64,000 bases of DNA from Dyella lutea (lineage in GTDB: Bacteria > Pseudomonadota > Gammaproteobacteria > Xanthomonadales > Rhodanobacteraceae). The DNA lies in contig NZ_JAMZEK010000002.1 in assembly GCF_024158035.1 (NCBI RefSeq), positions 558,001-622,000 of the forward strand, given 5' to 3'. How positions within the stretch are numbered: the first letter of the stretch is position 1; every line of letters starts with the position of its first letter. The notes beneath the pieces were generated by a model, which did no database searches, was not told the DNA's origin, and was given only the letters and a program-made list of their open reading frames with translations. The position numbers and the translations under genes were made by a program. Shown here in pieces: positions 5,004 through 23,556 of the stretch.

Positions 5004-5864
5004 ATGCTTGTCGTCGTCGGTGCCCTGGTCGTGATCATCGCCGTGGTGGGCGGCTTCGTGCTGTCCCACGGACATCTCGCCGCGTTGTGGCAACCTTACG
5101 AGCTGCTGATCATCGGTGGTGGGGCGCTAGGCGCGTTCCTCAGCGCCAATCCGTCGAAGATCGTCAAGGCATCGATCCAGGACGCCATCGGTCTGGTCAA
5201 GGGACCCAAGTACAAGAAACAGGACTACGTTGACCTGCTCTCGCTGCTCTACGACATCTTCAGCGTGGCGCGGAAGGAAGGTCTGCTGGCACTCGAGTCG
5301 CACATCGAGAACCCGGAAGAGAGTCCGATCTTCACCAAGTATCCGCGGTTGATCCGCGAGCACCATCTCGTCGATTTCATCACCGACTGCCTGCGCCTGA
5401 TGGTCAGCGGCAGCATGAACGCGCACGAGCTCGAGCCGCTGCTCGACTACGAGCTGGAAACCCACCACCACGAAGCCGAGGCTCCGGCGCACGCGGTGGC
5501 CAAGATGGCTGACGCGATGCCCGGCTTCGGCATCGTGGCGGCGGTGCTCGGCATCGTGATCACGATGGGCTCGCTCAACGGCGGCGACACCTCCGCCATC
5601 GGCGAACACATCGCCGCCGCGCTGGTCGGCACCTTCCTCGGCATCCTGCTGGCCTACGGCTTCATCGGTCCGCTGGCGCAGGCGATGGAGTCCAAGGTGA
5701 AGGAGGACAGCAAGGCATTCGAGTGCGTGAAGGTGGCGCTGATCGCCAACCTGCGCGGCTACAACCCCAAGGTGGCGGTGGAGTTCGCGCGCAAGTCGCT
5801 GTCGTCGCAGTCCCGGCCGAGCTTCCAGGATCTCGAGCTGCACCTCAAGGGCGCTGCGGCATGA
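5004..5864 (+). CDS. motA: Flagellar motor stator protein MotA
   Basis: MotA is the proton-channel subunit of the flagellar stator and makes torque against FliG. The product of 286 residues begins MLVVVGALVVIIAVVGGF, has four predicted membrane helices, and contains the conserved proline segment 'MPGFGIVAAVLGIVITMG' before the third and fourth helices. The start has AAAGGCGGA just upstream. It is preceded by a FliA promoter and overlaps motB by four bases (ATGA), so the two subunits are translationally coupled. No other flagellar genes are in this window. Confidence 0.97.
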   Translation: MLVVVGALVVIIAVVGGFVLSHGHLAALWQPYELLIIGGGALGAFLSANPSKIVKASIQDAIGLVKGPKYKKQDYVDLLSLLYDIFSVARKEGLLALESHIENPEESPIFTKYPRLIREHHLVDFITDCLRLMVSGSMNAHELEPLLDYELETHHHEAEAPAHAVAKMADAMPGFGIVAAVLGIVITMGSLNGGDTSAIGEHIAAALVGTFLGILLAYGFIGPLAQAMESKVKEDSKAFECVKVALIANLRGYNPKVAVEFARKSLSSQSRPSFQDLELHLKGAAA

Positions 5865-16901: not shown

Positions 16902-16905
<4 letters not shown>

Positions 16906-18212
16906 GCCAGGCCGCGGCCCCCGTTCCGTTCGTCGAGGCGCAGCGCGAGGCGGCGTTGCCGGTCAGCGGCATCGCCTGGCTGGACGCGGCACGACGCGAC
17001 AACCTCGACGCCTTCCTGGCCGCCGGCCTGCCGGACACGCGCGTGGAAGCGTTCAAGTACACCGCGCTGCGTGCGCTGGGCCAGCGCCGCTACGCCGCCG
17101 GCGATGCGGCAGCGGCCACGCGGGCGATCGATGCGGCGGCGCTGGCGCTGCCCGGCGTCGACGGTCCGCGGCTGGTGTTCGTCAACGGTGTGTTGCGCGC
17201 CGATCTGTCCTCGCTCGATGCGCTGCCTGCCGGCCTGAGCCTGCAGCCGCTCTCGCAGGCGCTGGCCAGCGACGCCGAGCCGCTGCGCTTCGCGCTGGCG
17301 CGCGCCTACCGCGATGCGGGTGACGCGTTCGCCCAGCTCAATGCGGCGTTCGCCGCCGAGGGTGTGGTGCTGCGCGTCGCAGCGGGCGCGCAGATCGAGG
17401 TGCCGGTGCACCTGTGCTTCGTCGGTGCCGCCTCGGAAGGCGACGCGATGTGGCACCTGCGCCAGGTGATCGAGCTGGGTGAGGGCGCTTCGCTCTCGCT
17501 CGTCGAGCATCATCTGGGTCATGGCGAGCACGCCCACCTGGGCACCGTGGTCACCGACATCGCGCTTGGCGAGCGGGCGCGGCTGCAGCACGTGATCCTG
17601 CAGTCGGCCGCCGAGGGCAGCACCCTGGTGCGTCGCACCGGCCTGCAGCTGCGCGCCGGTGCGCACGCCACCCTGCATGCGCTGGAACTGGGCGGCGCGC
17701 TGAGCCGCCACGAACTGCAGGCCGACGTGGCCGGCGACGGCGCGCGGCTGGAGACGCGCGGCGCCTTCGTGCTGCACGGTCGCCAGCACGCGGACACGCA
17801 GATGCTGGTGCGTCATACCGCACGCAACTCCTCGTCCGAGGCGCTGTGGCGCGGCGTCGCCGACGGCCGCGCGCGCGGCGTGTTCCGCGGCGCGATCTAC
17901 GTGGCGCCGGGCGCCGACGGCACCGACGCCAGCCTCAGCAACAAGAACCTGCTGCTGTCCGCCAACGCCGAGATCGACACCAAGCCCGAGCTGGAGATCC
18001 ACGCCGACGAGGTGAAGGCCGCGCACGGCGCCACCGTCGGCCAGCTCGATCCGCGCGCGCTGTTCTACCTGCGCTCGCGCGGTATCCCCGAGGCGCAGGC
18101 ACGCGCCATGCTCACCGCCGCGTTCTGCCGCGCCGTGCTGGACGACCTGCCGAACGAGGCGCTGCGCGAGCACCTGTCCGACCTCGTGGCCCGGCACCTG
18201 CCGCAGGCCTGA
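16902..18212 (+). CDS. sufD: Fe-S cluster assembly protein SufD
   Basis: SufD pairs with SufB in the scaffold complex and is needed for iron entry. The 436-residue product shares the beta-helix core with SufB and ends with the family segment 'DPRALFYLRSRGIPEAQAR'. The conserved histidine region 'EIHADEVKAAHGATVGQLD' is present. Start ATG 16902 overlaps the sufC stop. sufS begins 23 bases downstream. Confidence 0.97.
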
Positions 18213-18235
18213 ACCTCTTCGCCACCGGATCGCCG

Positions 18236-19480
18236 ATGAACGCCGCCACCGCCACCCCGACCGCCTTCGACGTGCAGCGCGTGCGCGCCGACTTCCCGCT
18301 GCTGTCGCGCTCGGTGCACGGCAAGCCGCTGGTGTACTTCGACAACGCCAACACCAGCCATAAGCCGGCGGCGGTGATCGAGGCGGTGGACCGCTTCTAC
18401 CGCGAGTACAACGCCAACGTCTCGCGCGCCGTGCATTTCCTCGGCGAGGAGGCGACCAGCGCCTACGAGGGCGCGCGCGACAAGCTCGCCGCCTTCATCA
18501 ATGCCACCTCGCGCAACGAGCTGGTGCTCACCTCCGGCACCACCCAGGCCACCAACCTGGTCGCCTACAGCTACGCGCTGCCGCGCCTCAAGCCGGGTGA
18601 CGCCATCGTCACTACGGTGATGGAGCACCACGCCAACATCGTGCCGTGGCAGCTCGTCGCCCAGCGCGCCGGTGCCACGGTGAAGGCGGCGCCGATCGAC
18701 GAACGCGGCGAGCTGATCGTGGAGCGCTTCGTCGACCTGCTCACCCCCGAGGTGAAGCTGGCCTGTGTCACCCATGTGTCCAACGTGCTGGGCACGGTGA
18801 ACCCGGTGCGCGAGATCGCCCGCGAGTGTCGCAAGCGCGGCATCCCACTGCTGGTCGACGGTTCGCAGGCCGTGCCGCATCGCCCGGTCGACGTGCAGGC
18901 GCTGGGCTGCGATTTCTACGCGCTCACCGGCCACAAGATGCTTTCGCCCACCGGCACCGGCGCACTGTGGGCGAAGAAGGAACACCTCGCCGCGATGCCG
19001 CCATTCTTCGGAGGCGGCGAGATGATCCGCGAGGTGCGCTTCGACGGCACCACCTTCGCCGAGCCGCCGCACAAGTTCGAGGCCGGCACGCCGAACATTG
19101 CCGGCTTCGTCGGCCTGAGCGCGGCGATCGACTACTACCAGTCGCTCGGCTTCGAGGCGATCCACGCCCACGAGCAACAGCTGCTGGCCTACGCCACCGA
19201 ACGCCTGCGAGAGGTGCCGGGCGTGCGCATCTTCGGCGAGGCGGCCGAGAAGGAGCCAGTGATCTCGTTCCTGGTCGAAGGCGCCCAGGCAACGGATCTG
19301 GCCACCCTGCTCGACCTGCAGGGCGTGGCCGTGCGCTCCGGCCATCACTGCGCCCATCCGTTGATGCAGTTCTACGGTGTGCCCGCCACCCTGCGCGCCT
19401 CGCTGGCGTTCTACAACACCCGTGAGGAAGTGGATGCGTTCGTCGAGGCGCTGGTGAAGGTGCGCAAGTTGTTGATGTGA
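18236..19480 (+). CDS. sufS: Cysteine desulfurase SufS
   Basis: SufS is a group II, PLP-dependent cysteine desulfurase that supplies sulfur for cluster assembly. The 414-residue protein has the PLP lysine in 'ALTGHKMLSPTG' (about 234), the histidine run 'TTVMEHHANIVPW', and the persulfide cysteine in 'RSGHHCAHPLM' (about 372). It is the last gene of the suf operon here. No sufE or sufT follows; an inverted palindromic repeat pair and an unrelated acyltransferase lie downstream. Confidence 0.97.
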   Translation: MNAATATPTAFDVQRVRADFPLLSRSVHGKPLVYFDNANTSHKPAAVIEAVDRFYREYNANVSRAVHFLGEEATSAYEGARDKLAAFINATSRNELVLTSGTTQATNLVAYSYALPRLKPGDAIVTTVMEHHANIVPWQLVAQRAGATVKAAPIDERGELIVERFVDLLTPEVKLACVTHVSNVLGTVNPVREIARECRKRGIPLLVDGSQAVPHRPVDVQALGCDFYALTGHKMLSPTGTGALWAKKEHLAAMPPFFGGGEMIREVRFDGTTFAEPPHKFEAGTPNIAGFVGLSAAIDYYQSLGFEAIHAHEQQLLAYATERLREVPGVRIFGEAAEKEPVISFLVEGAQATDLATLLDLQGVAVRSGHHCAHPLMQFYGVPATLRASLAFYNTREEVDAFVEALVKVRKLLM

Positions 19481-20699: not shown

Positions 20700-20952
20700 C
20701 GCACTTATCGTGCGAAGGTCTGCGGCACGCATTGTTCGGGCGCAGGACACGCCACCTTCCTTCGCCCGACGACGGGTTCAGCGAAGCAACGCTTGCTCCG
20801 TGAGCTCCAGCGGTCGATTGCCTTGGCTGTGGCGATCACCGCGCCACCCGCACTTTCTCCAATGTCCACGTCCTGAGGCCTCCGGTCTCGTGGCGCTGCC
20901 GTTCGATGCCACGGGCCGCCTCGCCGCGAGGCAGTAGCCAAGCGGGCAAGGC

Positions 20953-21564
20953 ATGCGTATGATGACCATCATGCGAAAGACATCTGCCAACGCCCGCGCC
21001 GCCGCCAAAGACGCCACCCATGACCGCATCGTGGGTGTCGCCGCCCGGGCGATCCGTCGCAGTGGATACGCCGGCACGGGCGTTGCGGACATCATGAAAG
21101 AGGCCGGTCTGACGCACGGCGCCTTCTACTCGCACTTCCCGTCCCGCGAGGCCATGCTGGCCGAAGCGGCGGCCGCGGCGTGCGCAGAGTCGGTGGCCAA
21201 CGCCGCCGAGGTGGCCGCCAGCGCGCCGCCCGATGAAGCGCTCGACGCCATGCTCGCCGCCTATCTCTCCAAGAAACATGTCGAGCAGTTGGAAACGGGC
21301 TGCCCCCTGGCTGCGCTGGGTTCGGAGACCTCGCGCCAGGCGCCCGAGGTGCGCCGTATCGTGACGCGTCACATCAAGGCGGCCGCCGATCTTATCGCCC
21401 GCCAATCCGCGGACTGGGGCCAGCAGAGCGCGCACGAAAGGGCGCTCATGACGCTTTCCACCATGGTGGGCGCCGTCGTGCTGGCCCGCGCCGTCGATGA
21501 ACCCGCTCTTTCGGACAGCCTGCGCAAGGCGGCACTCAAACACCTGACCTCCAGCGGACACTGA
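20953..21564 (+). CDS. TetR-family transcriptional regulator
   Basis: The 203-residue protein has the TetR N-terminal DNA-binding domain ('IVGVAARAIRRSGYAGTGVA', 'EAGLTHGAFYSHFPSREAML', about 27-72) and a C-terminal ligand domain like the LmrA/YxaF-type regulators ('TGCPLAALGSE'). It precedes an SDR and a quinone-reductase-like gene on the same strand. Its probable operator lies over its own start region, so the true start could be ATG 20953, 20959, 20962 or 20971; GCAAGG before 20953 favours the longest form. Confidence 0.92.
   Translation: MRMMTIMRKTSANARAAAKDATHDRIVGVAARAIRRSGYAGTGVADIMKEAGLTHGAFYSHFPSREAMLAEAAAAACAESVANAAEVAASAPPDEALDAMLAAYLSKKHVEQLETGCPLAALGSETSRQAPEVRRIVTRHIKAAADLIARQSADWGQQSAHERALMTLSTMVGAVVLARAVDEPALSDSLRKAALKHLTSSGH
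20958..20973. promoter_or_regulatory. TetR operator copy 1 (over tetR start)
   Basis: The sequence TATGATGACCATCATG matches 14 of 16 positions of the perfect palindrome found at 21602-21617, and both are followed by the same bases (CGAAAG). Lying over the 5' end of the regulator gene, it would allow autorepression. Confidence 0.75.
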
Positions 21565-21601
21565 GCCTGGGAAGCGCCCGGCTCATTCGTTCGCTCATAA
21601 A

Positions 21602-21617
21602 CATGATGATCATCATG
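21602..21617. promoter_or_regulatory. TetR operator copy 2 (upstream of SDR)
   Basis: CATGATGATCATCATG is a perfect 16-base palindrome, 37 bases after the tetR stop and about 100 bases before the SDR start. Its near-identical copy at the tetR start makes a shared repressor binding site the simplest reading. Confidence 0.8.
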
Positions 21618-21715
21618 CGAAAGTGCCTGAAAAAGTCTCTCAACTACCGCGGTGCGTCGCCCGGCTCGTGCCACCAGCGACGTGCCCATCCCCTACAGCC
21701 GGACGGAGCAGCGTC

Positions 21716-22558
21716 ATGAGCAAGAACAATCAAAGCAAGAAGGTGGCCCTCGTGACCGGTGCGTCATCGGGGATTGGGCAGGCGACTGCCGAGTTGCTAG
21801 CGAGCGCGGGCTACACGGTGTACGGCACGAGTCGACGCGGCGGCTGTGCGGGCGGGCGCGCGTACGAGATGCTGACCCTGGACGTGACCAGCGATGCATC
21901 CGTCGCCGACGCTGTCGCGCAGTTGATGCAGCGGGAAGAGCGCATCGACCTGCTCGTCAACAACGCCGGCTTCGGCGTGGCTCCGGCCGGAGCCGAGGAA
22001 AGTTCGATCGAGCAGGCCCAGTCGATTTTCGACACCAACTTCTTCGGAATCGTCCGGATGACGCGCGCCGTGCTTCCGCACATGCGCAAACAGGGTGCCG
22101 GACGGATCATCAACATGGGCTCGGTACTTGGCTTGTTGCCCATGCCGTACGGAGCGCTCTACTCCGCGACGAAGCACGCGATCGAGGGCTATTCCGAATC
22201 GCTCGACCATGAACTGCGCACCCGGGGCATCCGGGTCTCGGTGGTCGAGCCTGCCTACACCAGCACGCCCTTCGACGCGAACTTCCTGCAGCCGGACGCC
22301 CAGCTCGATGCGTACCGCGAGGCACGCGTCGCTGTTGGCCGGCGCGTGCAGGAAGTGATGGCCACGGCGGATCAGCCGCGTGTCGTGGCGGAGGTCGTGC
22401 TGAAGGCCGCCAACGAGGCCAGCCCGCGACTTCGCTACACGGCGGGCCGGCTCGCCGGGCGGCTGGCGTGGCTGCGGCGATTCGCTCCCGCCGGGGTGAT
22501 GGATGCAGGCATACGAAAGGATCTGCGGCTCGACGCGGCGTCGGCGGTGAGGTCATGA
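21716..22558 (+). CDS. Short-chain dehydrogenase/reductase
   Basis: A classical SDR of 280 residues that should oxidise or reduce a small alcohol or carbonyl with NAD(P). The cofactor motif 'TGASSGIG' is at about 13-20, 'NNAG' at about 83-86, and the catalytic set Ser and 'YSATK' at about 134-151. The start ATG 21716 gives MSKNNQSKKVALVTG. It overlaps the following oxidoreductase by four bases (ATGA), and a TetR operator lies upstream, so the pair is likely induced by the ligand of the regulator. Confidence 0.92.
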   Translation: MSKNNQSKKVALVTGASSGIGQATAELLASAGYTVYGTSRRGGCAGGRAYEMLTLDVTSDASVADAVAQLMQREERIDLLVNNAGFGVAPAGAEESSIEQAQSIFDTNFFGIVRMTRAVLPHMRKQGAGRIINMGSVLGLLPMPYGALYSATKHAIEGYSESLDHELRTRGIRVSVVEPAYTSTPFDANFLQPDAQLDAYREARVAVGRRVQEVMATADQPRVVAEVVLKAANEASPRLRYTAGRLAGRLAWLRRFAPAGVMDAGIRKDLRLDAASAVRS

Positions 22559-23556
22559 AAGCATTCGTCGTCGATCGCTATCAGAAGCAAGCGGCCCTGC
22601 GTCTGGCCGACGTGCCGACCCCGGAACTCCGCGACGACGAGGTCCTGGTCGAAGTGCATGCCGCCGGCGTGAACCTGCTGGACGCCAAGATCCGCAGCGG
22701 CGAGTTCAAGCTCATCCTGCCGTATCGGTTGCCGCTCATCCTCGGGCACGACGTGGCAGGCGTCGTCGTCAGGGTGGGCCGGCGCGTGCGCCAGTTCAAA
22801 CCGGGTGACGAGGTCTACGCGCGGGTGGACGATTTCCGCATCGGCACGTTCGCCGAGTTCGTGCCGGTCAAGGAAGCCTCGCTCGCGCTCAAGCCCAAAG
22901 GGCTGACGATGGAAGAGGCCGCTTCCATTCCGCTGGTGGGGCTGACGGCATGGCAGGCGATGGTCGAGAGAGCGGGCCTGAAGAAAGGCCAGAAGGTCTT
23001 CATCCAGGCCGGCTCGGGCGGTGTCGGCAGTTTCGCCATCCAGCTGGCCAAGCATCTGGGTGCCACCGTCGCCACGACCACGGGCACGAGCAATGTCGAA
23101 CTCGTCCGGAGTCTGGGCGCGGACGTCGTGGTCGACTACAAGTCGCAGGATTTCGAGACCGTCCTGCGCGACTACGACGTCGTGCTGAACAGCCAGGACG
23201 GCAAGACGCTCGACAAGTCGCTTCGCGTCCTCAAGCGTGGCGGCAAGCTCATCTCCATTTCCGGGCCGCCCGATCCCGAGTTCGGGCGCGAGATCGGGGC
23301 ACGCGGCCCGGTGCGCCTGGTGATGCGGCTGCTGAGCTCCGGTGTGAGGCGCAGGTCGCGGCGATTGGGCGTGGGCTACTCGTTCCTCTTCATGAAGGCG
23401 AGTGGGAGCCAACTGCGCGAGATCACCCGACTCATCGACGCCGGGGCCATCCGCCCCGTGATGGATCGCGTGTTTCCGTTCGCCTCGACTAACGAGGCTC
23501 TAGCCTATGTGGAGGCCGGTCGCGCGAAGGGAAAGGTCGTCATCAAGCTGAAGTGA
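22555..23556 (+). CDS. NADP-dependent quinone-reductase-like oxidoreductase
   Basis: The 333-residue product is a medium-chain reductase of the quinone oxidoreductase type. It has a GroES-like N-terminal part ('VEVHAAGVNLLDAKIRSGEF', 'LGHDVAGVVVRVG') and a Rossmann segment 'FIQAGSGGVGSFAIQLAKHL' at about 154-173. Catalytic zinc ligands are absent, as usual for this subgroup. It ends the TetR-SDR-reductase operon. A role in handling quinones or electrophilic aldehydes is likely by family but the substrate is unknown. Confidence 0.9.
   Translation: MKAFVVDRYQKQAALRLADVPTPELRDDEVLVEVHAAGVNLLDAKIRSGEFKLILPYRLPLILGHDVAGVVVRVGRRVRQFKPGDEVYARVDDFRIGTFAEFVPVKEASLALKPKGLTMEEAASIPLVGLTAWQAMVERAGLKKGQKVFIQAGSGGVGSFAIQLAKHLGATVATTTGTSNVELVRSLGADVVVDYKSQDFETVLRDYDVVLNSQDGKTLDKSLRVLKRGGKLISISGPPDPEFGREIGARGPVRLVMRLLSSGVRRRSRRLGVGYSFLFMKASGSQLREITRLIDAGAIRPVMDRVFPFASTNEALAYVEAGRAKGKVVIKLK

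Follow-up and report, generated by a model that had tools for sequence, protein, structure and literature searches.

In the literature on leaderless TetR-family genes, acuR of Rhodobacter sphaeroides was the one close case among the papers listed, a set that leaves subscription papers mostly uncovered. The gene encodes a TetR-family self-repressor in the acuR-acuI-dddL operon, and its transcript begins exactly at the AUG, as determined by 5'RACE (PMC3017554). The promoter and an inverted-repeat operator are placed just before the ATG, mutations in the operator lead to constitutive expression, and acuR lacks a Shine-Dalgarno site while the downstream genes have one (PMC3017554). Lambda cI and Tn1721 tetR are named there as repressor genes that are also translated from leaderless transcripts (PMC3017554). 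In the TetR/tetA system, two short palindromic operators control both regulator and target (PMC3511530), and the Snowprint approach predicts operators from conserved inverted repeats beside homologous regulators (PMC10858194).

Here we analysed a stretch of 64,000 nucleotides, called the window below, in which two palindromes flank a tetR gene. We consider it very probable, from the comparison of related sequences, that the TetR protein encoded between the two palindromes uses both as operators, and that they would serve a leaderless, self-repressed tetR and a repressed SDR-dehydrogenase operon. The locus would work like acuR but with an additional operator for the enzymes.

Genes and palindromes of the locus

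Three genes on the forward strand make up the locus. The tetR gene (20971..21564, +), read from ATG 20971, encodes 197 aa with a TetR_N and a TetR_C_13-type domain; the N-terminal helix-turn-helix domain scored 45.7 bits against PF00440 (cut-off 24), and the ligand-binding C-terminal domain scored 33.2 bits against PF21993 and 28.6 bits against PF16925, both above 27. It is followed by a gene for an SDR-family oxidoreductase (21716..22558, +), which exceeded the cut-off of NF004823 (410 bits, cut-off 310), and by a gene for a zinc-type alcohol dehydrogenase/quinone oxidoreductase-like protein (22555..23556, +), which stayed under the cut-off for each of the best 25 of 27 NCBIfam models. The dehydrogenase and SDR genes overlap by 4 bases and probably belong to the same operon. 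Further upstream, the genes at 16902-19480 were read by eye as sufD and a sufS-type cysteine desulfurase.

CATGATGATCATCATG is a perfect 16-bp palindrome at 21602-21617, and TATGATGACCATCATG at 20958-20973 is a 14/16 copy of it. The earlier note had described a perfect palindrome upstream of the SDR gene and a 14/16 copy over the tetR start; both were confirmed, and its coordinates 20958-21617 span the two copies correctly. When the 64 kb were scanned at up to 3 mismatches, only these 2 copies matched, while dinucleotide shuffles of the window gave a mean of 0.21 matches and reached 2 in 2 of 100 cases. As the window holds five perfect 16-bp palindromes, a palindrome alone is unremarkable, and chance was judged by conservation; what is remarkable about the copies is their pairing, place and conservation rather than their palindromicity. 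Another of these perfect palindromes, CATCGTGATCACGATG at 5552-5567, lies within a gene reading as motA-like and looks like chance.

The copies were extended to two predicted operators, O1 at 20957..20974 (GTATGATG-AC-CATCATGC), which covers the tetR start, and O2 at 21601..21618 (ACATGATG-AT-CATCATGC), which lies between tetR and the SDR gene. Each carries 13 of the 16 scored letters of ATATGATG-NN-CATCATAT.

Conservation of both sites in relatives

Related loci were collected in two ways. Among 398 genomes of the order, a search at E ≤ 1e-45 gave matches in 23 genomes and 24 loci, and a GTDB scan gave at least 581 relatives, of which the best 80 were analysed; these include Delftia, Acidovorax, Variovorax, Paraburkholderia, Rhodanobacter, Dyella, Luteimonas, Nevskia and Marinomonas. 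The resulting 104 tetR loci represent 102 distinct contexts, since two pairs agree by eye (L053/L112 from Rhodanobacter and L066/L137 from Dyella). Going by these pairs, the window probably belongs to the Rhodanobacteraceae. A site was counted when at least 12 of the 16 scored letters matched, taking the best match within 120 positions (order loci) or 100 positions (GTDB loci) on the tetR side and within 320 or 220 positions, respectively, on the SDR side; by a hand estimate, the chance of a score of 12 in such stretches is about 1% at most.

A site before the downstream gene was found in 104/104 loci (24/24 of the order, 80/80 of the best GTDB relatives), and a site at the tetR start in 97/104 (24/24 and 73/80, respectively); the seven remaining tetR-side sites, all among the best 80 GTDB loci, scored 9-11 of 16. 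In all 24 order loci the second site lies 30-42 bases past the tetR stop. Both sites are kept in relatives with TetR identity as low as 55%, and in three of the order loci (L049, L051, L057) they are kept although a gene other than the SDR orthologue comes next. The window's copies score lower than those of many relatives. The earlier proposals that the palindrome pair represents one TetR operator and that tetR would be autoregulated are strongly supported by the comparison of the 104 loci.

Promoter geometry and the tetR start codon

The left half of O1 contains TATGAT (20958..20963, +), a predicted -10 element, and a predicted -35 element (TAGCCA, 20935..20940, +) lies 17 bases before it. 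The ATG follows seven bases after TATGAT, and transcription normally begins about seven bases past a -10 element. The -10/-35 spacing places the transcript start at the tetR ATG, as a sequence pattern in which the window's own -35 element is weak. Among the order loci, the best promoter within 60 bases had its -10 element at TATGAT in 23 of 24, the exception being L046, the window's closest relative, where the best-scoring promoter lies elsewhere. TATGAT itself is a good -10 element, so the placement is partly built in and the -35 region provides the independent evidence. In that region, the motif T-T/A-G-C was present on 48/102 tetR sides versus 2/102 SDR sides. Hexamers resembling TTGACA in at least 3 of 6 positions occurred on 76/102 tetR sides (shuffle mean 43.4, maximum 57) and on 33/102 SDR sides (shuffle mean 43.9).

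A Shine-Dalgarno run of at least 4 was found at 5 of the 97 tetR starts that lie at the operator, and at 40 of 51 SDR starts; the latter count is generous, as it takes the best of several candidate ATGs and covers the 51 of 102 starts that allowed scoring. In the window, the SDR gene has GGAG at 21705-21708, and its ATG lies 97 bases from O2. The left half of the operator is a predicted -10 box, and only on the tetR side does it have a -35 partner, so the transcript is expected to start at the initiation codon; a leaderless tetR mRNA is the likeliest reading of these patterns.

The same promoter was considered for the SDR side and is not supported, as TATGAT stands there without a -35 partner. 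What is conserved on the SDR side, among the best 80 GTDB loci, is a T-rich stretch (-16 to -9) followed by G at position -8 (62/80).

The tetR start codon itself takes a fixed place in the site. Within the 18-mer, 69 loci have the tetR ATG at offset 14 and another 30 have it at offset 16, which makes 99 of the 104 loci (24 of the order and the best 80 of GTDB), which strongly supports the earlier suggestion that the gene would start within its own operator. In the five exceptions (L113, L126, L131, L142 and L145) the ATG lies 32-40 bases from the operator start; these genes would have a short leader, and their Shine-Dalgarno runs of 2, 2, 2, 2 and 3 do not reach 4. The mechanical call of open reading frames puts the window's tetR start at ATG 20953. 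Judged by the relatives, the start is most likely ATG 20971, at the right edge of the operator, from which the protein begins MRKTSAN.

The same operators and repressor could also be combined with a leadered tetR mRNA that is translated from ATG 20959 (or 20953), which would place the start upstream of the operator or within its left part. Loci of the offset-14 class, among them the window, have in-frame ATGs at offset 2, offset 5 or both, and AAGG at 20948-20951, seven bases before ATG 20959, would be usable if transcription began further upstream. However, neither of these two ATGs shares the tetR frame in the 30 offset-16 loci, ATG 20953 is absent from the closest relative L046, and the -35/-10 geometry sets the transcript start at the later ATG. 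As the early ATGs are in frame in the window, the choice among 20959, 20962 and 20971 rests on the relatives and on the promoter geometry; with both pointing to 20971, we regard a leadered tetR as unlikely and retain the leaderless start at 20971.

Specificity of the site and further copies in the genome

The exact consensus 18-mer occurs at 9 sites in 8 of the 398 order genomes. Eight of these sites belong to the locus studied here and come from 7 of the 23 orthologue-bearing genomes; the other 16 of the 23, the window's own included, have inexact sites without an exact 18-mer. All 9 exact sites adjoin TetR genes whose recognition helix reads LTHGGFYAHF. In G339, a genome without the orthologue, the exact ATATGATGATCATCATAT (L157, 1501-1518) immediately precedes a distant TetR gene whose helix is GLTHGGFYAHF. 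The window's own TetR, with its inexact sites, has the helix LTHGAFYSHF. The pattern LTHG-G/A-FY-A/S-HF is present in 104/104 loci, although this constancy is partly built in for the best 80 GTDB loci, as THG[GA]FY[AS]H was one of two search patterns; of the 24 order loci, which were found by whole-protein search, 22 have the helix LTHGGFYAHF, and the remaining 2, the window and L046, have LTHGAFYSHF.

A related site lies at a gene boundary in 9 of 20 distant TetR loci (29-41% identity), compared with 1 such site elsewhere in 60,417 bases. Seven still weaker TetR loci (L039-L045) were excluded from this count; in a looser scan, 0/7 of them had a site 200 bases or less from the gene. Two of the distant loci, L021 (2094, 2113) and L024 (1408, 1427), have two sites each, 19 bases apart.

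The window's own genome of 4.4 Mb contains 26 places within 2 mismatches of the 14-bp core. In the 15 of these 26 that were read, GCGAAAG follows O1 and O2 only. Four places lie within 2 mismatches of TATGATGNNCATCATA, including O1 and O2. The search for further copies that the earlier note had proposed yielded two extra TATGATGNNCATCATA-like places, neither of which resembles an operator of this TetR protein. The third place (L004) lies within a stretch that we take to be an enolase gene. At L070 (1501-1516; C5:132741-132756) an inexact site, TATGATGAAATTCATA, lies in a short gap between helicase/nuclease-like and ATPase-like genes, named by reading, and no TetR gene adjoins it. A larger regulon was rejected, as the two TATGATGNNCATCATA-like places besides O1 and O2 do not resemble operators of this TetR, with 15 of the 26 looser matches read; judged from these copies, the regulon is probably this one locus. 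The genome contains 4 TetR_C_13 matches.

Alternatively, the palindromes might serve a different regulator or have a structural role, for instance as terminators or repeats. In the window, 16-bp palindromes are not rare, and a strong RNA hairpin (21550-21600, -23.8 kcal/mol) spans the tetR stop just before O2. This hairpin lacks a T run and is a possible tetR terminator. A terminator conserved between tetR and O2 was rejected, given the missing T run in the window and a z below -2 in only 16/80 of the best GTDB relatives, in which a T run before O2 is conserved. Against a structural element or another regulator, the site is conserved while the hairpin is not, it hardly occurs at other places in the window's own genome, and its exact form adjoins TetR genes with one and the same helix throughout the 398 genomes; we regard such an origin as very improbable, and the palindromes are treated below as candidate operators of the neighbouring TetR.

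The earlier note had also pointed out that both copies continue with identical bases. This holds for the window, where the copies with the trailing GCGAAAG share 20 of 22 bases, but not for the operator in general. GCGAAA opens only 6 of the 104 SDR-side copies, the window's included (24 order and best 80 GTDB loci), so the tail is no general part of the operator and was rejected as such; on the tetR side GCGAAAG is coding sequence. A further reading, in which copy 2 is left over from a duplicated tetR start (palindrome plus ATGCGAAAG) and has no function, deserves hardly any credit: the 22-base near-identity does extend over coding GCGAAAG, and the two tails of a locus are more alike than permuted pairs (mean 3.57 of 8 versus 2.94, reached in 0/1000 permutations, with relatedness not controlled), but the SDR-side site is kept in every one of the loci compared, mostly with other tails, and reading on from the copy in L046 leads to a stop after MRN.

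A model for regulation of the locus

With both copies read as operators, a TetR dimer would bind ATATGATG-NN-CATCATAT-like DNA at O1 and O2. At O1, with TATGAT as the predicted -10 box on the left and the start codon in the right half, the bound repressor would block RNA polymerase at its own promoter. When O1 is unoccupied, transcription would start at the ATG or within about two bases of it, and translation of the resulting leaderless tetR mRNA would probably be weak. Repressor bound at O2 would block a separate promoter of the SDR-dehydrogenase operon, whose mRNA would have an ordinary leader with a Shine-Dalgarno site. The repressor might be released by a small molecule, which may be a reactive carbonyl or quinone removed by the enzymes. 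Both sites, their conservation, the start-codon geometry, the -35/-10 pattern and the missing tetR Shine-Dalgarno site were computed here. From the sequences we infer repressor binding, the transcription start and an inducer.

Since both predicted targets are oxidoreductases, it is a reasonable guess, and no more, that the inducer is a reactive carbonyl or quinone. Cys111 of the TetR protein is invariant in 104/104 loci (24 order and best 80 GTDB); PDB 2fd5 and 3qbm have the cysteine at the corresponding position, and YxaF lacks it. Electrophile sensing through Cys111 is suggested by this pattern, and only suggested. It is a doubtful but conceivable extension that a TetR-SDR-dehydrogenase module is widespread in beta- and gammaproteobacteria, in which the regulator's -10 element, operator and start codon are fused in one 18-bp element and its mRNA is leaderless, the enzyme operon has a normal leader, and Cys111 senses the reactive electrophiles that the enzymes detoxify.

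The analysis provides a sharply defined predicted operator for a widespread TetR group for which the literature searched describes none, links its recognition helix to the half-site ATGAT and corrects a start codon misplaced by mechanical annotation. It also supplies about a hundred natural variants for the study of leaderless, self-repressed regulator genes and, once the inducer is known, a possible repressor-operator pair for biosensors.

Comparison with known systems

Literature text containing ATGATGATCATCAT, ATGATNATCAT or ATGATGNNCATCAT gave no report of this operator, which is weak evidence of absence in a body of text that mostly leaves subscription papers uncovered. The operator inference used here follows the same logic as the Snowprint method. 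The best solved relative by sequence is the TetR-family protein of PDB 2fd5 (profile E 5.4e-24), presumably PA3133 of Pseudomonas aeruginosa. It shares the GCPL cysteine motif and the helix region, GLTVGGFYAHF, in which one helix residue differs (V for H).

Unlike TetR/tetA, where the genes are divergent and share one intergenic region, the genes here are co-directional, with one operator before each. Like Lambda cI and Tn1721 tetR, the locus has a repressor gene with a leaderless transcript, predicted in the present case. The window's TetR is unrelated to cI and at most distantly related to Tn1721 TetR, and operators and gene layout differ.

The closest resemblance is to acuR. By the curated model NF051457 the window's TetR is not a member of the AcuR family (24.3 bits, cut-off 247). 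As in acuR, a self-repressing TetR-family gene would carry its operator at the promoter, be leaderless and lack a Shine-Dalgarno site for the regulator, features predicted here from the sequence. Unlike the acuR operon, which has one mapped promoter-operator before acuR, a second predicted operator precedes the enzyme genes. The mechanism is already known from acuR; the present locus, whose reading as self-repressed is strongly supported, adds an unusually well-conserved example, a corrected start and a specific prediction of a leaderless promoter.
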